From Meiothermus sp. Pnk-1 (GTDB taxonomy: Bacteria > Deinococcota > Deinococci > Deinococcales > Thermaceae): a stretch of DNA of 55,135 nt. The stretch lies in NCBI RefSeq assembly GCF_003226535.1, contig NZ_QKOB01000006.1:1-55135 (forward strand). The letters run 5' to 3'. Every line of letters starts with the position of its first letter. The first letter of the stretch is position 1. Under the pieces are notes generated by a model that did not search any database, was not told the DNA's origin, and was given only the letters and a program-made list of their open reading frames with translations. Shown here piece after piece: positions 11,968 to 45,182 of this stretch. The translations under genes and the position numbers were made by a program.

Positions 11968-14238
11968 ATGGTTCCATCCCAGAAAGCTATAGACCAAGCC
12001 GTCCGCCGCGCTCCCCGCTGGCGCAGGGTTGTTCCAGCGGGGAGCGGGAACTGGCTTGGCAACCTCAAGATCGGGCAGAAGCTGGTGCTCATCTCGTTGG
12101 CCTTCGTGCTACCCATCGCGGTGGTGGTGGGGCTTTTGGTAGAGGAGCAAAACCGGGGCATCGAAACTACCCTCAGGGAAAAGCGCGGCCTGGAGTACGT
12201 AACCTTGCTGCGACAGCTCATGCAGGATATCCAGCTCCACCGCGGTCGGGCGGCTACGGAGCTGGGGGGCGATCCCAGCGCCCGTCAGCCCCGTCTGGAG
12301 CTGGCCAACAAGATTGGCGCCGACTTCTCGGCTTTGCTGGAGCTCGATAAGCGCTACGGGGGGGAGTTTGGTACCTCGAGCGCCTTGAGCGACCTGCGCT
12401 TGGGATGGGAGAGCCTGCTACAGGACCTCGAGCGGCTCTCGCCGCAAGAGAGCACCCAGCGCCACGACGACCTGATCAACCAGGGCATCCTGAACCTCAT
12501 GGAGACGGTGGGTAACACCTCCGGCCTCGCGGTGGACGCCGAGCAGGCCAGCGCTTACCTGAGCCGGTTGGCCATTCGAGAGCTGCCCGATGCCATCAAC
12601 GCCACCGGTCTGGTGCGCACCTTGGGGATCACCGCAGCCAGCCGGGGCTACAACGACGAGGGGCAAAAGGCCGAGCTGCGCCTGCGCTTGGCGCTCGCAG
12701 AAGAGCGCCTGGCGCGGGTGTCGCGCTTTATCCAGTTCGTCACCCAGGCCTCGCCCAAGGCCGCGGGCCTGCTCCTGCCGCAAAGCGGCCGCACCGCCGC
12801 CGCGGTGGACAAGATGATCTCGGCCTATAAAAGCCGTATCCTCGAGGTGAACCAGGCCACCGTGACCGGCGCGCAATTCTTTCAGCTGGCCTTCGACTCC
12901 TTTGAGCAGCAGTACAAGCTCTACGACGCGGTGCTGACCCAACTGGGCCTCGAGCTCAAGAGCCGCCTTGCCCTCCTGGAGCGCAACCGCTTCCTCACCC
13001 TCTCCCTCATCCTGCTGACCCTGGCCCTGACCTTCTTGTTGGTAGGGGTGGTGGCGCGGAGCATCACCCGCCCGGTGAACGCCCTCTACCTTGCGGCGCG
13101 GCGCCTGAGCGGAGGGGACCTGGAGGTGCAGGTGCCAGAGCGTTCTCACGACGAGCTGGGAACTTTGGCCCGGACCTTCAACGAGACGGTGGTCCAGCTG
13201 CGGGCCAAGGCCCAAGCCGACGCCGAGCAGCTCAAGCAGAGCGCTTTGCTCCAGCAGCACATCGGCGAATTCCTCGACGTGGCCATGGAGATCGCTCAAG
13301 GCGACCTGACCCGGCGCGGGCGGGTCACCGAGGACGTGCTGGGCAGCGTGGTGGACGCCATCAACCTGGTGCTGGAGGAGATGGGCGGACTGCTCAAGGA
13401 CGTGCAAAAGGCCGCCGATCTGGTGAACCAGGGGGCGGGGGAGCTGGTCCGTACCTCGGCGGTGATCGTGCAGGGGGCGCAGTCGCAGGCCCAGATCGCC
13501 CAACAGGCCCAGGGGCAGGCGGTGGAGGTCTCCGGCGCCATCCGGCAGATGGCCGAACGCGCTGCCCAGACCGCCGAAGCCGCCCGCCGCGCCTTACAGG
13601 CCGCCCAGGCCGGTCAGGCCGCGGTGCAGAACACCCTGGTGGGGATGCAGGGGATCCGCCGCGAGGTGTCCAACATCTCCAAGGGGATCAAAGGCCTCTC
13701 CGACCGCTCTTTGGAGATCTCGGAGATCATCGAGACCATCTCCGGCTTTGCCGCCCAGACCAACCTCCTGGCCCTCAACGCCGCCATCGAGGCCGCCGGG
13801 GCCGGTGAGGCGGGAACCCGCTTCGCCATCGTGGCCGAGGAGGTACGCCGGCTCGCGGAAGACTCGGCTAGGGCTGCCCAGCGCGTCACCACCCTCATCG
13901 GAGGCATCCAGGCGGAGATCCAGGCGGTGGTCTCGAGCGTGGAGGCGGGAACCAAAGAGGTGGAAGAGGGGTACCGCATCGCCAACCAGGCCGGGGAGCG
14001 CCTCCAGGAGATCGCCCAACTCACCACCCAGTCCGCCCAGTTGGTGCAAGCCATCTCGCAGGCTACCCAGACCCAGGCCCAGCGCGTCGCCCAGGTGGGG
14101 CAGGCGGTGCAGTCCATCGCCGCTACCGCCAGCCAGACCCAGGAGCAAAGCCTGAAAGGCCGCCAGGCCGCCGAACAGCTGCGCCAGCTGGCCGAGCAGC
14201 TCTCGCGCAACCTGGCCCGCTTCCGCCTCCCGGCTTAG
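11968..14238 (+). CDS. Methyl-accepting chemotaxis protein (PilJ-like), first of two
   Basis: 756 residues. Short cytosolic N-terminus, membrane helix about 40-58, a nitrate/nitrite-sensor-like helical periplasmic domain (about 60-335; note [16 protein letters not shown]), second membrane helix about 347-368, HAMP, a second HAMP-like unit ([20 protein letters not shown]), then the signalling coiled coil. The hairpin tip reads [33 protein letters not shown]; the usual Arg of EAARAGE is Gly. GGAGG precedes ATG 11968. It feeds the CheA-like kinase encoded two genes downstream. Confidence 0.9.
13306..13380 (+). repeat. 75-bp identical tract shared by the tandem chemoreceptor genes
   Basis: Bases 13306-13380 are identical to 15259-15333, in the second HAMP-like unit of each receptor, while the flanking coding sequence has diverged, including at synonymous positions (GAC versus GAT just before the tract). 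This suggests recent gene conversion between neighbours. Confidence 0.8.
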
Positions 14239-14247
14239 GGGTGAACG

Positions 14248-16191
14248 ATGGACCGTCCGAGTAAAAGGATCGCTTGGCGCCGCTCGAGGACCGTGGCGCA
14301 GAAGTCCGCGGCCGCGCGGCGCGGGGGCTGGCTCGAGAACGTACCGTTTTGGGGCAAATTGGCCATCAACGGGGCGGCGTTTGTGCTCACCGGCCTGGTG
14401 CTGGTCGGGGCCGGGGCTTGGGGCCTGAACCGGATGAGCCTTAACCTGGAGAACCTCTATCAGGCCACCCTGGTCCCTAGCTTGGCCATCAGCGAGGCCG
14501 ACAAGCAGTACGCGGACTTGCAGCGTTACCTGCAAACCCTGATCCATCCGAACACCAGCTCCACCCAGCGGTCCACCCTGATAGAGCTGGCGCGGATGGC
14601 CGACGAGCAGGCTGATGCCGCCATCGAGCAGTACGGCAGCGAATGGATCAGTACCCGCCGGCCCCAGCTAACCCAGGTGCTGACCCAGCAGGGGCGTACC
14701 GATTTGCAAGAGCTGGAAACCGAGACCTACCGCGCCCTCGTAGAGGCGCACCAAGCGGTGGCCCCCCTGCTCCAGCGCCTGTACGACCAGGTGCGCGCGG
14801 GGCGGCTCAACCTCGAGCTGGCCCGTCAGGTGGAGGAGGGCTATGCCCAAGTACGCCAAAACCTGCAAAGCCTGATTGAGGTCAACGGGCAGTTCGCCGC
14901 TATCTCCAACGCGGCCGCGCAGCAAGACGCCCGCCGGGCTCGTATGATCTCCTGGCTGGCTTTGGTAGCAGGATTGTTGCTAGGCGGGATCCTTACCGCG
15001 TTGGTGCTGCGTGCAATCCTACCCCGCCTGCGGGCGCTGCGCGAGGGGGCGGAGGCGCTGCAGCGCGGGGAGTACGGCCACCGGGTGGCGGTCTCGGGGC
15101 GCGACGAGGTGGGCGTGGTAGCGGCCACCTTCAACACCGCTGTAGAGCAGCTCCAGCGGTTTATCGCCCAGCAACAGGAGGAGCAGCGCAAAGCGGAGCA
15201 ACTCCAGCAGAACATCAGGGAATACCTGAGCGTGGCCATGGAAGTCGCCCAAGGCGATCTGACCCGGCGCGGGCGGGTCACCGAGGACGTGCTGGGCAGC
15301 GTGGTGGACGCCATCAACCTGGTGCTGGAGGAGCTCGGTTTCCTGCTCTCGGAGGTGCGCTCGGCCGCCCTCAAGGTCAACCAGGGTTCCTTGCTGATGA
15401 ACCAGATGACCGACGTGGTGCTGCAAGGGGCCCAGACCCAGGCCCAGATGAGCCAGCAGGCCCAGGCCCAGACCCTGGCCGTGACGGAGTCCATCCGGCA
15501 GATGGCCCAGCGGGCTGTGCAGACCGCCATCGCCGCCGGCCAGACCCTGACCGCCTCGCAGCAGGGCCAACAGGCTGTGGATCAGACCCTCGAGGGCTTT
15601 ACCGCCATCCGCCGCGAGATGCAGGAGCTGGCCCAGAGCATGAAGGAGCTCTCCGAGCGCTCCAAGCAGATCGCTGAGGTCAACAAGACCATCTCGGGGT
15701 TCGCCTCCCAGACCAACCTCTTGGCTTTGGGCGCCTCGCTCGAGGCCGCCGGGGCGGGCGAGGCCGGGGCCCGCTTCGCGGTGGTGGCCGACTCGGTACG
15801 GAAGCTGGCCGACGACTCGGCGCGGGCGGCCAAGCAGGTGGGTTTGTTGATTCGTAGCGTGCAGAACGAGATTCAGACCCTGGTGGAGCGGGTGGAGAGC
15901 AGCGCCCAGGAGGTGGACGCCCGCTACGCGGTAGCGACGCGCGCGGGGGAACGCCTTAGGGAAATCGCTGAGCTGGCCAACCAGGTAGCCCGCTTGGTAC
16001 AGGCCATCTCCAGCACCACCCAGCAGCAGGTGAGGCAGGTCGAGCAGGTGAGCCAGGCGGTGCAGTCCATCGCCGCCACCGCCCAGCAGACCCAGGCCCA
16101 AAGCTTGAAAGGCCGCCAGGCCGCCGAGGAGCTGAGCCGCTTGGCCCAGGGGCTAACCCAGAGCCTGGAGCGCTTCCGCCTGCCCGCGTGA
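14248..16191 (+). CDS. Methyl-accepting chemotaxis protein (PilJ-like), second of two
   Basis: 647 residues, paralogue of the preceding receptor. Membrane helices at about 38-56 and 230-252 flank a smaller sensor domain; HAMP, the same [20 protein letters not shown] unit and the signalling coiled coil follow. The tip diverges from consensus: [31 protein letters not shown] has Gly for the invariant Asn and Ser for a conserved Glu, so it may be a weaker or modulating partner in mixed receptor trimers (inference). It shares a 75-bp identical DNA tract with receptor 1. Confidence 0.88.
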   Translation: MDRPSKRIAWRRSRTVAQKSAAARRGGWLENVPFWGKLAINGAAFVLTGLVLVGAGAWGLNRMSLNLENLYQATLVPSLAISEADKQYADLQRYLQTLIHPNTSSTQRSTLIELARMADEQADAAIEQYGSEWISTRRPQLTQVLTQQGRTDLQELETETYRALVEAHQAVAPLLQRLYDQVRAGRLNLELARQVEEGYAQVRQNLQSLIEVNGQFAAISNAAAQQDARRARMISWLALVAGLLLGGILTALVLRAILPRLRALREGAEALQRGEYGHRVAVSGRDEVGVVAATFNTAVEQLQRFIAQQQEEQRKAEQLQQNIREYLSVAMEVAQGDLTRRGRVTEDVLGSVVDAINLVLEELGFLLSEVRSAALKVNQGSLLMNQMTDVVLQGAQTQAQMSQQAQAQTLAVTESIRQMAQRAVQTAIAAGQTLTASQQGQQAVDQTLEGFTAIRREMQELAQSMKELSERSKQIAEVNKTISGFASQTNLLALGASLEAAGAGEAGARFAVVADSVRKLADDSARAAKQVGLLIRSVQNEIQTLVERVESSAQEVDARYAVATRAGERLREIAELANQVARLVQAISSTTQQQVRQVEQVSQAVQSIAATAQQTQAQSLKGRQAAEELSRLAQGLTQSLERFRLPA

Positions 16192-27230: not shown

Positions 27231-27305
27231 TCCCTCCCCTAGCAGGGGAGGGGTGGGTATACGTCCGTACGCCATACGTAATACGCCAGACGCTAAACGC
27301 GGGGG
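27231..27305 (-). repeat. Dispersed intergenic repeat, copy 2 (inverted relative to copy 1)
   Basis: The 136-nt gap between pgk and tpiA holds the second copy of the repeat seen at the window start. Bases 27284-27305 are the reverse complement of 1-22, and CTCCCCTAGCAGGGGAGGGG (about 27233-27253) is the matching palindrome. Repeat-like words (GACGTACGACGTTTGGCG) continue to about 27340. Confidence 0.75.
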
Positions 27306-36937: not shown

Positions 36938-37276
36938 ATGGAATCCGCCTTGCACCGCTTCAAGGCCGAGTTCTTCAAAGCCCTGGGCCATCCTGTGCGC
37001 CTAGCCATCCTCGACGCGCTGCGGGAGGGGGAGAAGAGCGTGGGAAGGCTGGCCGAGGAGCTGGGCCTCGAGCAGCCTAGCGTCTCGCAGCAGCTTGGTG
37101 TTCTGCGTCAGCGCGGCTTCGTAGAGGCCCGCAAGGAGGGCACCAGCGTCTACTACCGCACTGCCGACCCCGATGTGTACGCCTTCCTCGACTTAGGTCG
37201 CACCATCTTCGAGCGCCACCTAAAAACCCAAAGTGACCTCCTGTCCGAGCTTCAGGAGACCTCAGCCCAACCATGA
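36938..37276 (+). CDS. ArsR-family winged-helix transcriptional regulator
   Basis: 112 residues. RFKAEFFKALGHPVRLAILDALREGEKSVGRLAEELGLEQPSVSQQLGVLRQRGFVEARKEGTSVYYR is the complete ArsR helix-turn-helix and wing. There is no cysteine in the protein, so neither the ELCVCDL metal site nor the dithiol sulphide sensor of the BigR/SqrR type is possible; the signal is unknown. Start ATG 36938 is 8 nt after the -10 box; a TTG at 36929 would overlap the box. Its stop overlaps hyfB (ATGA). Confidence 0.87.
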   Translation: MESALHRFKAEFFKALGHPVRLAILDALREGEKSVGRLAEELGLEQPSVSQQLGVLRQRGFVEARKEGTSVYYRTADPDVYAFLDLGRTIFERHLKTQSDLLSELQETSAQP

Positions 37277-39060
37277 ATCCCTTAACCGACATCACCTTGA
37301 TCCTCCTGGGGCTGCAAAGCCTCCTGGCCCTGCTGCGTCCACCGGCAATTGGATTCTTGCCGCTGAGCCTGGGGGGCAGCGGGCTGCTGCTTCTGGTGGT
37401 GGGCCTTGGGGCCTGGCTTACCGGCGCCCAGGGCACCCCTCTAGACGCTACCGCGGGCTTCTACGTGGCCCTGCTAGGGGCTTTGCACCTAGGGGTGGGG
37501 CCCTATCTCCGAGAGTACCTGGCCCACCACGAGCCCCGCCGTGCCCACCTCGGTCAGCCCGTCAGGGCTAGGCTTGTGGCCTTCCTTCTCCCCCTCTTCT
37601 CCCTGGCCATGCTTGGGGTCCTTCTCTCCCCACCGGGCTACACCTTTCTCTTTCTCTGGGAGGGCATGGCCCTTTTGGGCTACCTCCTCATCGCCCTGGA
37701 AGGCCCGGTGGCCCTGGCGGGCAGCCGGGCCTTCTTCCTGGCCAGCCGCCTCTCGGGGGCCGGGCTGTTTTTGGCCCTGATCCTGCTGACCCGGAAAGAG
37801 CCGCTCTCAGGGGGGCTGGAAAACTTGGTCTGGGCCGGGCTCGTACTGGGTTTTGGCACCAAGGCAGCTCTCTTCCCCCTTTCCACCTGGCTGCCCAAGG
37901 CCCATCCGGTAGCTATGAGCCCGCTCTCGGCCCTGCTCTCGGGGGGGATGGTCAAGCTGGGGCTCTATGGCCTTTACCGTGCCCGGGATTGGGCAGGCCC
38001 GCCTCCAGAGTGGGTAGGCTGGCTCCTGGTGGGGCTGGGACTGGTAGGAGCTGTCTACGCCCTGGTCCGCGGCCTGGCTGAGGAGGATTACAAGGGGGTG
38101 CTGGCCTATTCCAGCGTGGAGAACCTCAACCTGCTCCTGGCAGCTTTGGGGGCGTACTTCCTGCTGAAAAGCCCCTTCTTCCTGCTGGCCTTCTTCTTCC
38201 ACCAGGTCGCCCACGCCCTCTTCAAGGGGCTCTTGTTCCTGGGTTCGGGGGCGCTTCCCGTGCGCGAGATCTCCCGCCTGGGCGGCCTGCACCGGCTGCT
38301 GCCGCGCACCGCAGTCTGGAGCTTCCTGGCTGCGCTGGCTGCGGCCGGCCTGCCCCCCTTGGCAGGCTTTCTCTTCGAGTGGTACCTCTACCAGGGCTTC
38401 CTCTCGGCCCCCAGGGGTACTGGGGCGCACTCCCTATTGGTGCTGGGGGTCGGGGCGGTGGCCCTGGTGGGAGCGCTCGCGACAGTGTCTTACGTACGCC
38501 TCTTCGGCTTGGTCTTTCTAGGCCAGCCGCGGAGTGCTCAGGCCGAGGAGGCCCACGAGATGGGCTGCTTCGGGCAGTTCGGCATGGGAATCCTTGGCGG
38601 GTTGCTCATAGGCCTCTCCCTCTTTCCCGCAGCACTTCTGAAGCCGCTCGAGCCCCCCCTGTACCCGGTGCTGCCCCTGTTTCTGGCGCTCGTGGGTTTG
38701 GGGGGCGGGCTGACCTACCTGCTGGTCCGAAAGCCCTGGCGGGCCTACGATACCTGGGACTGCGGCTTCCACCCCCTCACCCCCGAGATGCAGCCCCACG
38801 CCCTGGGCTATAGCGAGCAGCTCCTGCGGCTCTTCCCCTTTGTCGAGCTCAAAACCCACCTGTCTCGGGAGGGAATGCTGAGCCCCCCTAGGGTGCGCCT
38901 CGAGGTCAGGGACTGGTTCCAGGCCCCCCTGGCCCGCCTGGCCCAGGGCTACGCCACCCTCGCCCGCGGGGTGCAGCGCCTGCAGTCGGGCAGCCTGCAC
39001 CTCTACTTGCTGCTGCAATTCCTGGCCCTGCTCTTCGTTTTGGGGGTGGTCTGGCGATGA
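37273..39060 (+). CDS. Hydrogenase-4 component B-like / NuoL-like antiporter subunit
   Basis: 595 residues, about 14-16 membrane helices of the NuoL/NuoM/NuoN/MrpA type. Proton-channel residues are kept: Glu in LWEGMALLGY, Lys in GFGTKAALFPLSTWLPKAHP, and the EEDYKGVLAYSSVEN segment. The C-terminus (TWDCGFHPLTPEMQPHALGYSEQLLRLF ... FQAPLARLAQGYATLARGVQRLQSGSLH) is the HyfB/HycC-type end. It should translocate protons across the inner membrane as part of a complex I-like machine. Starts inside the arsR stop (ATGA) and overlaps hyfC. No repeat element inside it. Confidence 0.88.
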   Translation: MNPLTDITLILLGLQSLLALLRPPAIGFLPLSLGGSGLLLLVVGLGAWLTGAQGTPLDATAGFYVALLGALHLGVGPYLREYLAHHEPRRAHLGQPVRARLVAFLLPLFSLAMLGVLLSPPGYTFLFLWEGMALLGYLLIALEGPVALAGSRAFFLASRLSGAGLFLALILLTRKEPLSGGLENLVWAGLVLGFGTKAALFPLSTWLPKAHPVAMSPLSALLSGGMVKLGLYGLYRARDWAGPPPEWVGWLLVGLGLVGAVYALVRGLAEEDYKGVLAYSSVENLNLLLAALGAYFLLKSPFFLLAFFFHQVAHALFKGLLFLGSGALPVREISRLGGLHRLLPRTAVWSFLAALAAAGLPPLAGFLFEWYLYQGFLSAPRGTGAHSLLVLGVGAVALVGALATVSYVRLFGLVFLGQPRSAQAEEAHEMGCFGQFGMGILGGLLIGLSLFPAALLKPLEPPLYPVLPLFLALVGLGGGLTYLLVRKPWRAYDTWDCGFHPLTPEMQPHALGYSEQLLRLFPFVELKTHLSREGMLSPPRVRLEVRDWFQAPLARLAQGYATLARGVQRLQSGSLHLYLLLQFLALLFVLGVVWR

Positions 39061-40028
39061 GCGCCCTGGTGCTCCTCCTGCTGGCCCCGCTCTTCACCGG
39101 CAGCCTCAAGTGGCTCAAGGCCAGGCTGCAAAACCGGCTGGGTCCGGACCCCTTCTACGACTACAAGAACCTCTTCAAGCTCTGGCGCAAGACCTGGATC
39201 AGGCCCCGAGGACGATCCCCTTTGGGACCGGGCAGGCCCGGTACACCGGGTGGACGATCCCCTACCCCGCCTACCGGCGGCGAAAGAAGCGTCTCGGGAC
39301 GGAGCAAGCTCCGTACACCGGGAGGAGCCAGCCCCCTCTTCCTGCTCGCGCCTGTGGTGAGCCTGCTCGGCGTGGGGCTCGCCGCAGCCCTCCTGCCGGT
39401 GCTGCCGGGGATTTCCTTCGCCGGGGACTTCCTGGTGCTGGTCTACCTCCTGAACCTGGGCCGCTTCTTCCAGGTCCTGGCCGCGCTGGATACCGGCAGT
39501 GCCTTCGGGGGCCAGGGCAGTTATCGGGAGAACCTGGTGGCGGTGCTGGCCGAGCCCGGCACCGTGCTGGCCCTGGGGGCCGCCGGGCTGGCTTCGGGGG
39601 GCTTCTCGCTGGCCGCCTTCGCTCCCCTTTCACCGCAGAACGCCCTGGTCTACACCCTGGCCCTGGTGGCCTTATCGTTGGCCCTGCTGGCCGAAGGAGC
39701 CCGTATGCCGGTGGACGACCCCACCACCCACCTCGAGCTCACCATGATCCACGAGGCCCAGTTGCTCGATCACTCCGGCCCCCTTTTGGCTCTCTACGAA
39801 CTCTCGGCGGGGATGAAGCTCTTGGTGTACATCGGCCTCATCGCCCTGCTCCTGCCCTTTGGGGGGTTATCCTTCCCTGCGGCGCTCCTGCTGGCCTGGC
39901 TGGCGCTGGGCTACCTGGAGACCTACGGGGTCAAGCTGCGCTACTTGAGGCTCCCCGACCTGATGAGCTACAGCACGCTCACGGGCATCCTGGCCGTACT
40001 GGGGGTGGTGTTACGCTTTCGGATCTAG
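39057..40028 (+). CDS. Hydrogenase-4 component C-like / NuoH-like subunit with an in-frame repeat insertion
   Basis: 323 residues. NuoH/HycD family features: LKARLQNRLGPDPFYDYKNLFKL near the N-terminus, EGARMPVDDPTTHLELTMIHEAQLLDHSGPLLALYE in the middle, and LGYLETYGVKLRYLRLPDLMSY at the end. It joins the membrane arm to the soluble subunits. Residues 51-89 come from a 115-bp repeat inserted in the loop after the first conserved segment; the rest aligns as if the insertion were absent. Overlaps hyfB by 4 bp. Confidence 0.87.
   Translation: MSALVLLLLAPLFTGSLKWLKARLQNRLGPDPFYDYKNLFKLWRKTWIRPRGRSPLGPGRPGTPGGRSPTPPTGGERSVSGRSKLRTPGGASPLFLLAPVVSLLGVGLAAALLPVLPGISFAGDFLVLVYLLNLGRFFQVLAALDTGSAFGGQGSYRENLVAVLAEPGTVLALGAAGLASGGFSLAAFAPLSPQNALVYTLALVALSLALLAEGARMPVDDPTTHLELTMIHEAQLLDHSGPLLALYELSAGMKLLVYIGLIALLLPFGGLSFPAALLLAWLALGYLETYGVKLRYLRLPDLMSYSTLTGILAVLGVVLRFRI
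39208..39322 (-). repeat. Modular hairpin repeat, copy 1 (inside the hyfC-like gene)
   Basis: 115 bp, the exact reverse complement (115 of 115) of copy 3 at 42285-42399. It adds Gly/Pro/Arg-rich residues in frame. Contains two modules, each with a hairpin arm pair (ACGGAGC-TT-GCTCCGT and ACCGGGC-CT-GCCCGGT) and ending in GGGGATCGTCC. Confidence 0.92.
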
Positions 40029-40069
40029 CCCCTAACCTGACGCTGGCCATACTGGCTGCGGGGTTCTTG

Positions 40070-40651
40070 ATGGTGGGCCGCAAGAGCCTGGACGCATGGA
40101 TCCGGCTCTACGCCCTGCAGAACGTGCTCCTGGCGCTTTTGGCCTTCGTGCTGTCCGATGGGGAGCGGCACTTGGTGGCAGCCGGATTGGCCCTGCTCTT
40201 CATCAAGGGGGTGCTCATCCCCCGCTACCTCTTCTGGCTGCTGGAGCGCCTGGGGATCAGCCACGAGGTGGAGTCCTACCTCTCCATTCCCCTATCGCTG
40301 CTCCTGGGTGGAGTCTTGGTGGCGGTGGGCTTCCGCGTGGGGAGCAGCTTCGTCCTGGAGGGGGCCCGGCTGCCGGAGGCCGTACCGGTGGCCCTGGGCC
40401 TGATCCTGCTGGGGATGCTCTCCATGGCTAGCCGCAAAAAGGCGGTCACCCAGGTGCTGGGATTTCTGGCCCTGGAGAACGGGGTCTTCCTGCTGGCTTT
40501 AGCCGAGAGTCGTGGCCTGCCGCTGTTCATCGAGCTGGGGGTGGCCCTCGACGCTTTTGCCGCCGTGGTGCTCGCGGGGGTGCTGATCTTTCGCATCCGG
40601 GCCGCCTTCGGCCACATCGATACCGCGCGGATGCGCGACCTAAAGGGGTAA
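40070..40651 (+). CDS. Hydrogenase-4 component E-like membrane subunit
   Basis: Six or so membrane helices; LARLRAIRAL-type loops are absent but YALQNVLLALLAF, FIKGVLIPRYLFWLLERLGI, ENGVFLLALAESRGLPLFIELGVALDAFAAVVLAGVLIFRI and the end TARMRDLKG match HyfE (NuoK-like). The start is unclear: the first standard ATG (40070) would cut the conserved first helix (LTLAILAAGFLMVGRKSLDAW), whose codons begin at 40037 with CTG. Translation may start at a CTG near 40037 after termination of hyfC at 40028. The long frame running antisense-like through hyfC upstream is not part of the gene. Confidence 0.8.
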   Translation: MVGRKSLDAWIRLYALQNVLLALLAFVLSDGERHLVAAGLALLFIKGVLIPRYLFWLLERLGISHEVESYLSIPLSLLLGGVLVAVGFRVGSSFVLEGARLPEAVPVALGLILLGMLSMASRKKAVTQVLGFLALENGVFLLALAESRGLPLFIELGVALDAFAAVVLAGVLIFRIRAAFGHIDTARMRDLKG

Positions 40652-40653
40652 CC

Positions 40654-42075
40654 ATGCTCTACTTGCTGCTTTTTCTTCCTCTCCTGCCCGCCCTCTATGC
40701 CCTGCGCGAGCGGGAGATCGAGCGGCTCGCGGGTAGCACCGCCGCCAGTGCCGCGCTGTCGTTGGGGCTAGCGCTCCTGGCCCAAAACCAATCTATAGGA
40801 CCCCTACGGCTCGACGGGGTGGGACTTTTTTACCTGCTGCTGACCGACTGTCTCTTTGCGCTGGTGGCCCTGTACGCCCGGGCTTACTTCCAGGCGGCGC
40901 AGGACGGGGAAGCCTGGCGCTTCTACGCTACTGGAAACCTGTTTCTCTTCGCGATGCACGGAGCCTACCTGGCGCACAACCTGGGCCTGCTGTGGATCTT
41001 CGTGGAGGGCAGCACCCTGGCCTCGGCCTTGCTGGTCTACCACAAAGGAGGGGCAAGGGCCCTCGAGGCCACCTGGAAGTACCTGATGCTCGGTAGCGTG
41101 GGCATCGCCCTGGGACTCATCGGGGTGATTCTGGTCTACGCCCTTTTGGGTGGGGCCACGCTGGACTGGCAGGAAGCCCGGGCGCTGGTCCGGGGAGCCG
41201 ACCCAGCCCAGCTCAAGCTGGCCTTTGCCTTTTTGCTGGTGGGCTTTGGCACCAAGGTGGGCCTGTTCCCCATGCACCCCTGGCTGCCCGACGCCCACTC
41301 CGAAGCCCCCAGCCCGGCCTCGGCCCTGCTCTCGGGAACGCTGCTCAACGTGGCCTTCTACGCCCTCTTGCGCTACGTCGCCCTGCTGGGCAGCGCAGGG
41401 TTATTCGACTTTGCCGCGGGGCTGTTGCAGGGCTTCGGGCTGCTCTCGCTGCTGGCCGCGGCCCTTTTCCTCTTTGCCCAGCGGGATTACAAGCGGCTAC
41501 TGGCTTACTCCAGCATGGAGCACATGGGGTTGGCGGTCTACGGCCTGGGCCTGGGGGTTCCCTGGCTGGCCATGCTGCACACCCTGTTCCATTCCCTGAG
41601 CAAGACCGCCGCCTTCCTCTCGGCGGGCAACCTGCTCTTGGCCTACCAGAGCAAACTCATCGCCCGGGTGGGGGCGGCGTGCCGGGCCTGGCCCGCCACC
41701 GCTGGGCTTTTGGTTCTCTCCTTGCTTGCCTTAGCAGGCCTTCCCCCCTTCGGGCTCTTCTACACCGAGTTTCAGGCCCTCTTGCGCTCGAGCCCCCTCT
41801 CGATGGGGCTCTACCTGCTGGGACTGCTGGGGGCTTTCGCTGGGCTGCTGTGGCCCCTCTCCCGCATGGCCTTCGGGGAGGAGCCTGCGGGGGCGAGCCT
41901 CGATACGCGGAAAAGCATGCTGCCACGCGCCCGGACGTTGGTGGTGGTGCCCGCCGTGCTGGTGGCGCTGGCCCTGGTCCTGGGCCTCTTTCCCCCGGTA
42001 GGGGTGGTGGAGCGGCTGGCGGAGACGCTTCTTTCGCCGCCGATAGGCGGGGAGGTGCTCGCGTGGAAGCTCTGA
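40654..42075 (+). CDS. Hydrogenase-4 component F-like / NuoN-like antiporter subunit
   Basis: 473 residues with about 13-14 membrane helices. Channel residues are present: Glu in WIFVEGSTLASALL, Lys in VGFGTKVGLFPMHPWLPDAHSEAPSP, and the YKRLLAYSSMEHMGLAVYGLG segment with Lys and His. It is the second antiporter-like pump subunit besides the hyfB product. The last residues (ETLLSPPIGGEVLAWKL) come from a partial repeat (copy 2), which forms its C-terminus, and the hyfG start lies inside this end. Confidence 0.88.
   Translation: MLYLLLFLPLLPALYALREREIERLAGSTAASAALSLGLALLAQNQSIGPLRLDGVGLFYLLLTDCLFALVALYARAYFQAAQDGEAWRFYATGNLFLFAMHGAYLAHNLGLLWIFVEGSTLASALLVYHKGGARALEATWKYLMLGSVGIALGLIGVILVYALLGGATLDWQEARALVRGADPAQLKLAFAFLLVGFGTKVGLFPMHPWLPDAHSEAPSPASALLSGTLLNVAFYALLRYVALLGSAGLFDFAAGLLQGFGLLSLLAAALFLFAQRDYKRLLAYSSMEHMGLAVYGLGLGVPWLAMLHTLFHSLSKTAAFLSAGNLLLAYQSKLIARVGAACRAWPATAGLLVLSLLALAGLPPFGLFYTEFQALLRSSPLSMGLYLLGLLGAFAGLLWPLSRMAFGEEPAGASLDTRKSMLPRARTLVVVPAVLVALALVLGLFPPVGVVERLAETLLSPPIGGEVLAWKL
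42022..42052 (+). repeat. Modular hairpin repeat, copy 2 (partial, C-terminus of the hyfF-like gene)
   Basis: 31 bp matching the middle of module A (GAGACGCTTCTTTCGCC through GGCGGGG) with one substitution in the hairpin loop (GATA for GGTA). It forms the last coding part of hyfF, 11 nt before the hyfG start. Confidence 0.75.
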
Positions 42076-43595
42076 AGCAGGCGCTGGGGTCGGGTCGGCT
42101 GGTAGCGCTTTGGTACGATGCGCCCTACCTGCGTTATCTGGTCGAAGGGTTCGCTGGGGGCCCCCCACGGGAGTTCCGGGTGGAAGCCCAGGGGAGCTTT
42201 CCCAGCCTGGCAGGGGAGTTCCCGGCGCTGGACTGGTTCGAACGGGAGCTGTGGGAAGAGCATGGCCTCGTCCCCGAGGGTCACCCCGGTGTACGGAGCT
42301 TGCTCCGTCCCGAGACGCTTCTTTCGCCGCCGGTAGGCGGGGTAGGGGATCGTCCACCCGGTGTACCGGGCCTGCCCGGTCCCAAAGGGGATCGTCCTCC
42401 GGCCCCCAAGCCCCTCCGCAACCACCGCCTCCCTTATCCCTTCGAGCGGGTGGAAGGGCTGCACGAGGTGCCCGTAGGCCCGGTGCACGCGGGCATCATC
42501 GAGCCCGGCCACTTTCGCTTCAGCGTGCTGGGAGAAAGGATTCTCCACCTCGAGCTCCGCCTGGGCTACCAGCACCGGGGCCTGGAGCGGCTATTCCAGG
42601 GGAAACGCCTCGAGCAGGCCCTCTTGCTGGCCGAGCGGGTGGGCGGGGAGCCGGTGGCCCACGCTCTGGCCTTCTGCCAGGCGGTGGAGGCCGCTTTGGG
42701 GGTGGAGGTGCCCCAAAGGGCCCGCTGGCTCCGGCGGGTGCTGCTTGAGCTCGAGCGCCTCTTCGGTCACCTGGGCCACCTCGCGGGGCTTTTCACCGAT
42801 ATCGGTTACGCCTACGCCGCCACCCAGGTGGGCAAGGTGCGGGCCCTACTCCAGGGTCAACTCGAGCGCCTGACCGGGCATCGCTATGGCCGCAACGCCC
42901 TCACGGTAGGGGGCGTGGGCTTCGATATAGACCCGGAAACTCAGGCCGAGGTGCGGGGGGCGCTCGCCGAGCTGGCCGCCGAGGCCGAAACCCACCTCAC
43001 CGCAGCTCTAAGGCACCCCATGGTCCTGGACCGCTTTCGTTACGTAGGCCTGGTGACCCAAGCCCAGGCCCAGCTCCTGGGCCTGGTGGGTCCGGCAGCC
43101 CGGGCCTCGGGGCTGGGGCGCGACCTGCGCCAGGACGACGCGCTGTACCAGTTGTTCACCTCGGTGACGCGTACTGGGGGTGACGTGCTGGCTCGGGCCC
43201 AGGTCTATGCCGAGGAGATCCGGCAGGGCTTTGCCTATCTGGATCGCGTTCTCGCCGAGCTGCCCGCAGGGGCAGTAAGGGCGGATGGGGGCCGGCTCCC
43301 CGGTGTACGGAGCTTGCTCCGTCCCGAGACGCTTCCTTCGCCGCCAGTAGGCGGGGTAGGGGATCGTCCTCAAGAGGGAGAACTCCGCGAGGCCTATAGC
43401 CGGGTGGAGGCTGGGCGGGGGGAACTCTTCTACTGGGTGCGGCTACGGGGGAATCGGGTAGAACAGGTCAAGATCGTCGATCCCAGCTTCAAGAACTGGC
43501 GGGCCCTCGAGCTCGCGGTGCGGGGGATGGGCTTGCCCGACTTTCCCCTCATCAACAAGTCCTTCGACCTCTCCTACGCGGGGTGCGACCTATGA
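42063..43595 (+). CDS. Hydrogenase-like large subunit (HyfG/NuoCD-like) lacking all NiFe-binding cysteines
   Basis: 510 residues from GTG 42063. A shortened NuoC-like part ends in FPALDWFERELWEEHGLVPEGHP (to residue 75); the large-subunit part follows (GHFRFSVLGERILHLELRLGYQHRGLE, VPQRARWLRRVLLELERLFGHL, GRDLRQDDALY, TGGDVLARAQVY). The first NiFe motif, RVCGICG in hydrogenases, reads RVGGEPV (Gly194, Pro197). The second, DPCxxC, reads DLSYAG (Ser504, Gly507). It therefore cannot hold NiFe. Two repeat insertions add residues 75-113 and 413-437 in loops. Overlaps hyfF by 13 bp. Confidence 0.88.
   Translation: MEALKQALGSGRLVALWYDAPYLRYLVEGFAGGPPREFRVEAQGSFPSLAGEFPALDWFERELWEEHGLVPEGHPGVRSLLRPETLLSPPVGGVGDRPPGVPGLPGPKGDRPPAPKPLRNHRLPYPFERVEGLHEVPVGPVHAGIIEPGHFRFSVLGERILHLELRLGYQHRGLERLFQGKRLEQALLLAERVGGEPVAHALAFCQAVEAALGVEVPQRARWLRRVLLELERLFGHLGHLAGLFTDIGYAYAATQVGKVRALLQGQLERLTGHRYGRNALTVGGVGFDIDPETQAEVRGALAELAAEAETHLTAALRHPMVLDRFRYVGLVTQAQAQLLGLVGPAARASGLGRDLRQDDALYQLFTSVTRTGGDVLARAQVYAEEIRQGFAYLDRVLAELPAGAVRADGGRLPGVRSLLRPETLPSPPVGGVGDRPQEGELREAYSRVEAGRGELFYWVRLRGNRVEQVKIVDPSFKNWRALELAVRGMGLPDFPLINKSFDLSYAGCDL
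42285..42399 (+). repeat. Modular hairpin repeat, copy 3 (inside the hyfG-like gene)
   Basis: 115 bp, identical to copy 1 but in the opposite orientation, so the same DNA is open and translated in frame from both strands in two different genes. Sits between the NuoC-like and large-subunit parts. Confidence 0.92.
43299..43371 (+). repeat. Modular hairpin repeat, copy 4 (inside the hyfG-like gene)
   Basis: 73 bp: one full module A (72 bp, two substitutions relative to copy 3) ending in GGGGATCGTCCTC, without module B. In frame in a loop near residue 425. Confidence 0.9.
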
Positions 43596-44458
43596 ACCCC
43601 TTCTGGCAGACCTTGCGTACCGGCCTCCTGACCCGAAGCTTGGAGAAGATCTTCCGCCTGCCCGCCTGGGCCCCCGGCTGGCCTGTGCTGCGGCCTGGGG
43701 GGCTTTCCCGGGCGGTGAGGCAGGAACTCCTGGGGCTTTGCCCCAGCGGCGCCTTCGCCGAGGAAGGAGATGAGTTTCGGCTGGATCTGGCGAAGTGCGT
43801 CCTCTGCGGGCGCTGTTTCCGGGCCTATCCGCAGGCGATGGGGGAGTTGCGCACCCTGGAGGTGGCGGTGACCCGGCGGGAGGACCTCGTGCAGCGGGTA
43901 GACCTGGCTACAGCGAGCTTCGTGGACCCAGGCCCCCCACCCCCCACCCGCGCCGAACTCCACCTGCCTACCCTGGCCTTCCGCGAGGTCTCCGCGGGCA
44001 GCACCGGCTTGGACGATACTGAGGTAGCTCTGGCCGGCAACCCCTTCCACGACATGAGCCGCTTCGGCTTCAGCGTGGTGGCCTCGCCCCGTCACGCCGA
44101 CGCCCTCTTGGTGACCGGACCGGTGAGCCAGAACATGCGGGAGGCCCTCCTGCGCACCTATGAGGCCACCCCGGAGCCCAAGGGGGTGGTGGCGGTGGGC
44201 AACGAGGCCATCGGCGGCGAGGTCTTCGCGGAGAGCCCGGAGGTGGTAGGAGGAGTGGACAAGGTGTTGCTGGTGGACGTCTATGTGCCGGGTAGCCCGG
44301 CCCGGCCAGCCTCCATCCTGCATGGCCTCTTGCTGCTTAGCGGCCGGGCCCGGCAGGTGCTGGTTGGGGGGCGCGTGGCGCAGGAGGACGACCCGGAGCA
44401 CGCTCCGTACACCGGGAGGACAGCACCCGGTGAAGCGGGGGTGAGGGAAGATGGCTGA
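43592..44458 (+). CDS. Fused ferredoxin-like (HyfH) and small-subunit-like (HyfI/NuoB) protein lacking the proximal cluster ligands
   Basis: 288 residues. N-terminal ferredoxin part: Cys50 (LCPSGAF), Cys69, Cys72 and Cys75 (KCVLCGRC) form a complete set for one [4Fe-4S] cluster; position 79, where the other cluster's Cys-Pro would be, is Tyr. From about residue 125 it is NuoB/HyfI-like (MSRFGFSVVASPRHADALLVTGPVSQNMREALLRTYEATPEPKG), but the four ligands of the N2/proximal cluster are replaced: Thr138, Asp141, Glu205, Ser235 (PGSP for PGCP). So no electron exit near the large subunit is possible. The C-terminal tail includes repeat copy 5. Confidence 0.85.
   Translation: MNPFWQTLRTGLLTRSLEKIFRLPAWAPGWPVLRPGGLSRAVRQELLGLCPSGAFAEEGDEFRLDLAKCVLCGRCFRAYPQAMGELRTLEVAVTRREDLVQRVDLATASFVDPGPPPPTRAELHLPTLAFREVSAGSTGLDDTEVALAGNPFHDMSRFGFSVVASPRHADALLVTGPVSQNMREALLRTYEATPEPKGVVAVGNEAIGGEVFAESPEVVGGVDKVLLVDVYVPGSPARPASILHGLLLLSGRARQVLVGGRVAQEDDPEHAPYTGRTAPGEAGVREDG
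44384..44416 (-). repeat. Modular hairpin repeat, copy 5 (C-terminus of the fused hyfH-I gene)
   Basis: 33 bp, reverse orientation: CCCGGTGTAC, hairpin CGGAGC-GT-GCTCCG, GGTCGTCCTC. A minimal module that keeps only the two ends and the hairpin. Confidence 0.8.
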
Positions 44459-45182
44459 ACGGTGGTCAGCAAAAACCATGACAGCGGCACCCACCGACGC
44501 CGAACGACTACTGGAGCTGCTGCTCGAGCCCTGCTGCCCCATCTGCACCCTATCCCGCCAGGCCGTGCTGAGCTACCTTGACGAGCAACTGGTGCGCTCC
44601 GGTGTATCGGGCCTGCCCAGTCCCCAAGGGGATCGTCTGCCCGGTGTACGGGCTGTTGCCCGTCCCCAAGGGGATCGTCCTCGGCAGGCTTTCCCGATCC
44701 CAACAGAGTTGGCCACCGGGGTGCTGTGTAGCCGGCATTGGCGCAAGCTGGTTATGCTCGAGGTTCGGCGCGGGGCCAGAGTGCGGCTGAGTGAGGCGCT
44801 GCTGGGCGAACTTCTGGAGGGCGCCGACGCCCCGCGGCCCTGCCCGGCGTGTGAGGTGCAGCAGGCCGCTGCCAGGCACTACCTGGGGATGCTAAGCCGG
44901 CTACCCACCGAAACACTCGAGCTGGCCTTGCGACAGGGCGAGGGCTTCGTCTGTCTCAGGCATCTCGCGGCGCTACCCACAGGCCCCCTCAAGGGTTGGC
45001 TGCTCGAGCGCGTACACACCCTCACACTCGACCTACCTCGCTTTCAGCAGCGCTATGCTCGCCACCACGGTACTTACGCAGGTGAGCATGCCGCCGGGGA
45101 CATGTCTGCGAGTCCCAAGGAGGATCCGCAGGCGGCCCTGGCAGCCCTGGCGGCCCTGGAGGGAGAGGGTTGGCTAGCTTAG
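44451..45182 (+). CDS. Cysteine-rich DUF6062-like protein with CPxC/CxRH repeats
   Basis: 243 residues; ATG 44451 follows GAGGGAAG and overlaps hyfHI by 8 bp. Two internal repeats, each with CPxC then CxRH: Cys29/Cys32 with Cys93/His96, and Cys131/Cys134 with Cys168/His171. This pattern could bind Zn or an Fe-S cluster. It resembles DUF6062 (moderate confidence). As the last gene of the operon it may assemble or interact with the complex. Residues 50-78 come from repeat copy 6, inserted between the two halves of the first site. The 3' end overlaps smc by 9 bp. Confidence 0.72.
   Translation: MAERWSAKTMTAAPTDAERLLELLLEPCCPICTLSRQAVLSYLDEQLVRSGVSGLPSPQGDRLPGVRAVARPQGDRPRQAFPIPTELATGVLCSRHWRKLVMLEVRRGARVRLSEALLGELLEGADAPRPCPACEVQQAAARHYLGMLSRLPTETLELALRQGEGFVCLRHLAALPTGPLKGWLLERVHTLTLDLPRFQQRYARHHGTYAGEHAAGDMSASPKEDPQAALAALAALEGEGWLA
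44598..44682 (+). repeat. Modular hairpin repeat, copy 6 (inside the DUF6062-like gene)
   Basis: Two tandem module-B-like units, 44598-44639 and 44640-44682, each beginning CCGGTGTA, carrying a hairpin (CGGGC-CT-GCCCAG and ACGGGC-TGTT-GCCCGT) and ending GGGGATCGTC. In frame, between the CPxC and CxRH motifs of the first repeat. Confidence 0.9.

Follow-up and report, generated by a model that had tools for sequence, protein, structure and literature searches.

The DNA analysed here is a stretch of 55,135 nucleotides from Meiothermus sp. Pnk-1 (contig NZ_QKOB01000006.1), referred to below as the window. It contains an operon which, judged by its sequence, encodes a respiratory-type membrane complex resembling complex I and formate hydrogenlyase. 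A palindromic repeat occurs at six places in five genes of this operon (Table 1). All six places, which were pointed out in an earlier note made from the sequence alone, are present in the window. The repeat is built of two modules. Unit A is 42 bp long and contains two hairpins; unit B is a 30-bp hairpin module that is either nested in A or stands alone. The modules form a genuine family of palindromic in-frame insertions that extends across the clade; the phenomenon is of a known kind, but its form is new, modular and unusually compatible with coding. The family very probably represents very short, non-autonomous mobile palindromic elements that tolerate insertion into proteins.

Table 1. 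Host genes and repeat copies in the operon (positions in the window)
Feature	Position	Strand	Basis or remarks
NuoH-like membrane subunit	39057..40028	+	Pfam NADHdh
Copy 1: 114-bp insertion, A with nested B, then A	39208..39321	-	NuoH-like gene, 38 residues in frame
NuoN/HyfF-like proton-conducting subunit	40654..42075	+	Pfam Proton_antipo_M
Copy 2: 30-bp B module alone	42022..42051	+	near NuoN-like C-terminus, 10 residues
Fused 30/49-kDa-like subunit (HyfG/HycE-like)	42063..43595	+	Pfam Complex1_30kDa, Complex1_49kDa
Copy 3: 114-bp insertion, A with nested B, then A	42286..42399	+	fused HyfG-like subunit, 38 residues
Copy 4: 72-bp insertion, A with nested B	43300..43371	+	same gene as copy 3 (HyfG-like)
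NuoB-like subunit	43592..44458	+	Pfam Oxidored_q6
Copy 5: partial, remodelled A unit	44384..44416	-	NuoB-like C-terminus, about +15 bp relative to G003
Conserved open reading frame, no Pfam match, orthologues present	44451..45182	+	Pfam search, orthologue comparison
Copy 6: two tandem A units, 2 x 42 bp = 84 bp	44599..44682	+	downstream cysteine-rich open reading frame

Copies 1 and 3 have the same sequence in opposite orientations, as had been noted, and each is composed of 42+30+42 = 114 bp. The length of 115 bp originally given for them is one base too long: comparison with orthologues indicates that the match at the 115th base is due to chance. In the window each of the two module patterns has four matches, against none in dinucleotide shuffles of it. 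The statement that the repeat is found nowhere else in the window is correct for both A and B, yet both abound in the remainder of the genome.

Unit A has the layout CCGGTGTA, stem-loop, CCC, linker, GGGGATCGTCCNN. Its head, CCGGTGTA, and its tail, GGGGATCGTCC or GGGAATCTACC, are conserved, whereas the stem is variable in sequence yet remains paired. The linker between CCC and GGG is 4-5 nt long, and a second short hairpin is possible there. Module B (GAGACGCTTCTTTCGCCGCCGGTAGGCGGG) is located in this linker or alone. The A units are inserted singly or in head-to-tail sets, and length variants of 39, 45, 48 and 57 bp exist besides those of 42 and 30 bp. The paired changes of the hairpin arms, first noticed in the window, are real, and the stem positions show strong covariation between units: 98.6% of the cells in the stem alignment are paired, compared to 82.9% in shuffles, with 41 two-sided changes, and slid controls come nowhere near this value. 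Among the 29 distinct stems of coding units, 84% pairing was found versus 65% in shuffles (maximum 74%). This count was made by anchored parsing because the MAFFT alignment of the coding units mixes stem and linker lengths. Three loci of the genome to which the window belongs (L015, L016 and L017) have B-like modules outside A units, beside other hairpin-rich repeats (GAGACGCTTGTTTCGGCGCAAGCCGTGGGGTGGCG), which suggests a larger B-related family.

The five host proteins were aligned with their orthologues from Allomeiothermus silvanus (A. silvanus, genome G001), from genomes G003, G005 and G009, and from Thermus-type genomes. The alignment contains insertions of 38, 10, 38, about 23-24 and about 28 residues, as well as a small remodelled stretch in the NuoB-like protein. 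Except at copy 5, the orthologues have exact empty sites. Copy 1 is missing from eight orthologous loci, and the codons flanking the empty site are restored exactly. The empty site of the downstream open reading frame in G003 is CGCT^GGCAG, and in the window exactly 84 bp separate the T from the GG; copy 6 has no target-site duplication relative to G003 (site sequence CGCTGGCAG). For the HyfG-like gene, removal of the insert gives back the ancestral codons CAC C^CG GCC. The proposal of in-frame insertions in five genes is borne out for the clean insertions of 114, 30, 114, 72 and 84 bp; copy 5 is a partial remnant.

The filled and empty orthologous sites by which mobile elements are generally recognised are both found. 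The orthologous operons of G003, G005 and G009 do not contain the units of the window. The HyfG-like gene of A. silvanus has 42-bp units of its own at other sites of the gene, and A. silvanus differs from G003 by the presence or absence of exactly 42 bp at CAACCACCAC^CTCCC. In PabB, as in the HyfG-like gene, units occupy different sites of the same gene in different species; one PabB site is common to A. silvanus and G003, where the element is 95% identical compared to about 86% in its flanks. The TopA of one Meiothermus-type genome contains two units, the first of which is missing, by exactly 42 bp, from a relative that is 95% identical. The insertions appear to differ in age. The B module of copy 2 is present at the same site in A. 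silvanus, so this insertion is the older, ancestral one. The 114-bp composite is present in two identical inverted copies and is absent from all relatives compared, which points to its having recently moved or been copied.

The spread of the family was examined in 50 Thermaceae genomes, one genome per species, in which the group labels Calidithermus (g2), Meiothermus (g3) and Thermus (g4) were inferred from kinship. A BLAST search with the 115-bp stretch gave 68 matches in the own genome of the window. A covariance model of unit A found 129 units in 68 clusters in this genome, 46 units in A. silvanus, 39 in G003 and 55 in G002, with E-values down to about 1e-11. By the same model A units are present in 20 of the 22 genomes of groups g1-g3 (Allomeiothermus-, Calidithermus- and Meiothermus-type) and in none of the 28 other Thermaceae, among which BLAST gave a single short match to the B module, in G039. 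An Rfam search returned nothing relevant. The family is dispersed genome-wide and is larger than was first noted. In the own genome most units form intergenic tandem arrays with periods of 41, 42 or 43 bp, located between the outer repeats GCGTTTAGCGTCTGGCG... and TACGTCATACGAAGGGGATCGG, each in part an inverted copy of the other. The outer repeat (GCGTTTAGCGTCTGGCGTTTTGCGTATTGCG...) also occurs at positions 1-40 and 27266-27305 of the window, the two copies being inverted relative to each other; no A unit was found there.

Many units of G003 and A. silvanus are located within genes, and 29 in-frame intragenic clusters were counted across three genomes with a simple coding score. When clusters with coding sequence on both flanks on one strand were considered (coding-score cut-off 0.15), the flanks were in the same frame, with the insert open, in 24 clusters; two were in the same frame with a stop and four were discordant in frame. 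These six exceptions may include units between adjacent genes. Among the hosts, many of them recognised by Pfam, are TauE, an FAD oxidoreductase, PabB, a type IV secretion system coupling protein, Cse1, Cse2, MetH, a secretin, the intein of a ribonucleotide reductase, a glyoxalase and an alpha/beta hydrolase. The intein unit (G003, C141:64936-64978, L130) is an in-frame A unit in the LAGLIDADG domain, that is, an element within an element within a gene. All six reading frames are used by intragenic units, although the frame assigned to the unit at C3:44941 of A. silvanus was probably mis-phased by the parser. Coding-type units are open in 5.49 of the six frames on average, versus 4.67 in dinucleotide shuffles (range up to 5.03), and 56% of them are open in all six, versus 20% of the shuffles. 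The excess is partly a matter of definition, since the translated frame must be open, but this explains a part of it only. The open frames suggest that the inserts are translated.

The mobile-palindrome reading is supported by the empty sites, the species-specific sites in the same genes, the genome-wide dispersal and the in-frame copies found in numerous unrelated genes of three genus groups. Of the two possibilities left open by the earlier note, a mobile palindrome tolerating protein insertion or a messenger RNA (mRNA) feature of the operon, the former is favoured by these results. We infer transposition from the empty sites. An enzyme, or a replication or repair process, would act in trans on the folded strand to copy and insert the element. 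Since the length of a unit is divisible by three and stops are rare in every frame of coding-type units, translation would continue through an insertion in a gene and add 10-38 residues to the protein, for the most part in a loop, linker or tail. Purifying selection on the host gene would then retain the in-frame copies in tolerant places, and IS605-type tnpB genes with units could act as carriers between species. A more far-reaching version, held with somewhat less than even confidence, is that the family is selfish DNA adapted to genes. Its codon-locked lengths (42 and 30 bp, with the variants listed above), few stops in all six frames and free turnover of the stem under pairing would allow it to insert in any orientation and frame, be translated and seed peptide loops across genera.

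A regulatory role of the repeat in the mRNA or DNA of this operon, for example in mRNA folding or as a protein-binding site, for which selection would have retained it, was suggested by the six sites within 5.5 kb of one operon, by the several units in the A. silvanus operon and by the stems being kept paired. It is now very improbable. Units are present in dozens of unrelated genes and in intergenic arrays, genome-wide and in three genus groups; they are read on either strand, the copies in the nuoH-like and hyfG-like genes being opposite in orientation with respect to transcription; and the orthologous operons of G003, G005 and G009 do without them. The genome-wide dispersal rules out an operon-specific mRNA feature as the main explanation. 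The peptides are rich in Gly, Pro and Arg and the DNA is GC-rich, as would be the case for common low-complexity sequence or a convergent peptide linker. This explanation is scarcely credible given the absence of matches in shuffles, the low E-values of the covariance model, the absence of matches in the 28 Thermus-type and g5 genomes, and the reading of the same DNA in six different frames. The shuffles, the covariance model and the six-frame use refute it.

Two further explanations concern the mechanism of movement. The elements could be derived from IS200/IS605 insertion sequences or belong to the type moved by REP-associated tyrosine transposases (RAYT; REP, repetitive extragenic palindrome), in which an HUH (Y1) transposase recognises a single-stranded hairpin and pastes it, as has been proposed for REPs. 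Such an origin is consistent with the hairpins, with the lack of a fixed target-site duplication and with the presence of Y1_Tnp genes in five of the five unit-bearing genomes tested first. In-frame units are located at the N-terminus (G002 and G003) or the C-terminus (G005, twice) of IS605 tnpB, a further tnpB-like locus of G005 has a unit, and in G014 a unit lies in or near a tnpB-like gene. The resolved sites, however, have no conserved target tetranucleotide, most Y1 loci examined show no unit in the stretch read, and the tnpB units look inserted and do not resemble ends of the insertion sequence. Unit-bearing genomes G013, G015, G016, G017, G020 and G021 have no Y1 match, and several Thermus-type genomes have Y1 without units. 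A Y1 origin is unlikely, and an IS200/IS605 (Y1) transposase as the obligate mobiliser was rejected by its misfit in co-occurrence across the 50 genomes. The tnpB copies are read as carriers by which units may have passed from one species to another, and not as proof of the mobiliser. The A units at tnpB ends are found in several genomes (L120, L138, L232, L233, L234 and L235). TnpB guide RNAs are usually encoded near the C-terminal end of tnpB, and the units at this end could be carriers or something functional. Alternatively, no transposase would be involved, and the units would spread by microhomology-driven template switching or by repair of hairpin-forming single strands, for example in natural transformation, with tandem growth by slippage. 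The variable direct repeats of 0-5 bp at the junctions, the intergenic tandem arrays with their 41-, 42- and 43-bp periods, and the perfect stems of many sequences, as expected from hairpin-templated correction, all fit this mechanism. For random switching, however, the ends at sites far apart are very precise, with the 42-bp boundaries recurring unchanged, and this explanation is rather doubtful.

Several observations weigh against a mobile element. Transposition was not observed and a dedicated mobiliser was not found. The direct repeats at the resolved junctions vary from 0 to 5 bp (AGCGG in TopA and GAGGA in the nuoH-like gene, but no repeat at the downstream open reading frame or at A. 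silvanus site 2) and do not amount to a fixed target-site duplication; there is no target motif across the resolved sites. Copy 5 is not a clean insertion, many of the in-frame calls come from the simple coding score and not from orthologue comparison, and the six unit-bearing genomes without Y1 and the Thermus-type genomes with Y1 and no units count here as well.

Rickettsia palindromic elements (RPE), the parallel drawn at the outset, are an apt comparison as something that works likewise. They are short palindromes inserted in frame in unrelated intact genes and also between genes, with no known transposase (PMC10969869). In-frame insertion in unrelated protein genes is shared by the Thermaceae units. 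RPEs are about 150 bp long (PMC10969869), whereas the units are 42 bp (A) and 30 bp (B), with composites of up to 114 bp in the window. By description, the units further differ in being modular, nested, tandem, read in six frames and found in Deinococcota, while RPEs are known from Rickettsia. REP elements, among them the GTAG super-family with its RAYT transposases and the CGTC super-family, are palindromes of 20-40 bp in many copies, some of them intragenic, with varying stem sequences (PMC3733652), and the units resemble them in these respects. The units differ from REPs in the 42-bp two-hairpin structure, the head-to-tail tandems and the lack of any RAYT-type association found. The GTAG tag 5' of the REP hairpin has no counterpart, the reverse strand reading GGTAG or GGACG, depending on the copy, away from the main stem. 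A RAYT (Y1) gene flanked by repeats was not found either: Y1 does not track the units, and those at IS605 loci lie inside the tnpB ends. Di Nocera et al. equated RPE-4 and RPE-6 with CGTC REPs, which consist of CGTC, a stem of 8-9 bp, a loop of 4-5 nt and a CCA tail (PMC3733652). In the units CGTC follows the short 3-bp CCC/GGG helix, and many copies have CTAC or CTGC in its place.

Prokaryotic miniature inverted-repeat transposable elements (MITEs) are small, non-autonomous and dispersed and sometimes add in-frame sequence to genes (PMC10969869). The ends of A, CCGGTGTA and ATCGTCCTC, are not inverted repeats of each other, and partly inverted outer repeats are present only in the intergenic composite of the own genome. 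MITEs have a target-site duplication of fixed length, whereas the direct repeats at the resolved junctions here range from 0 bp (downstream open reading frame, A. silvanus site 2) to 5 bp (nuoH-like gene, TopA). The family was not filed as RPE, REP or MITE because the size, the tag motifs and the transposase association do not match. The small noncoding repeats (SNR) of Deinococcus radiodurans (PMC1978522), compared by description, are from the same phylum and are likewise mosaic, but they are noncoding. The open literature searched yielded no earlier description of a family like this from Thermaceae, which is not proof of absence, and the A. silvanus genome paper does not mention such a repeat.

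Mitochondrial double-hairpin elements and repetitive hairpin-forming elements (RHE) contain adjacent GC-rich hairpins with variable but paired stems and are mostly intergenic. The likeness lies in the adjacent hairpins and the variable stems that remain paired; no relation is implied. RHEs are described from sponges (PMC2800124).

Protein-coding palindromes have so far been discussed mainly for Rickettsia, which are obligate intracellular bacteria with reduced genomes. If the mobile-palindrome reading is true, repeated in-frame insertion into core enzymes would be no peculiarity of such genomes, since here a modular family of exact length, open to any frame, is found within TopA, MetH, PabB and subunits like those of complex I in free-living thermophiles. 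The clean pairs of filled and empty sites would provide a test bed for the movement of hairpins without an evident transposase and for the fixation of inserted peptides. The family is also a warning that annotated proteins of these genera contain repeat-derived segments.

The gene order of the host operon is kept in related genomes, and the best Protein Data Bank match of the fused HyfG-like subunit is formate hydrogenlyase subunit 5. Its structure was predicted with distant homologues, the only kind found in the search of related loci, as input. The predicted core is confident, with a predicted local distance difference test score (pLDDT) mostly above 90. Residues 81-130 and 415-434, the sites of the two inserts, have pLDDT values below 50. 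The insert block of copy 3, which is located in the linker joining the 30-kDa-like and 49-kDa-like domains, is predicted to be disordered (pLDDT about 31-41). The prediction agrees with the inserts being flexible surface loops but does not prove it.

In the host operon (37273-45182) the 49-kDa-like subunit reads RVGGEPVAHA at the position of the NiFe hydrogenase cysteine motif. The A. silvanus plasmid pMESIL01 contains the whole complex-I-like operon twice, at about 15-22 kb and 247-254 kb, in nearly identical inverted copies with the same units in both. Elsewhere in the window, positions 13249-13433 and 15202-15386 form a 185-nt direct repeat, the copies of which are 84% identical and 1953 bases apart.

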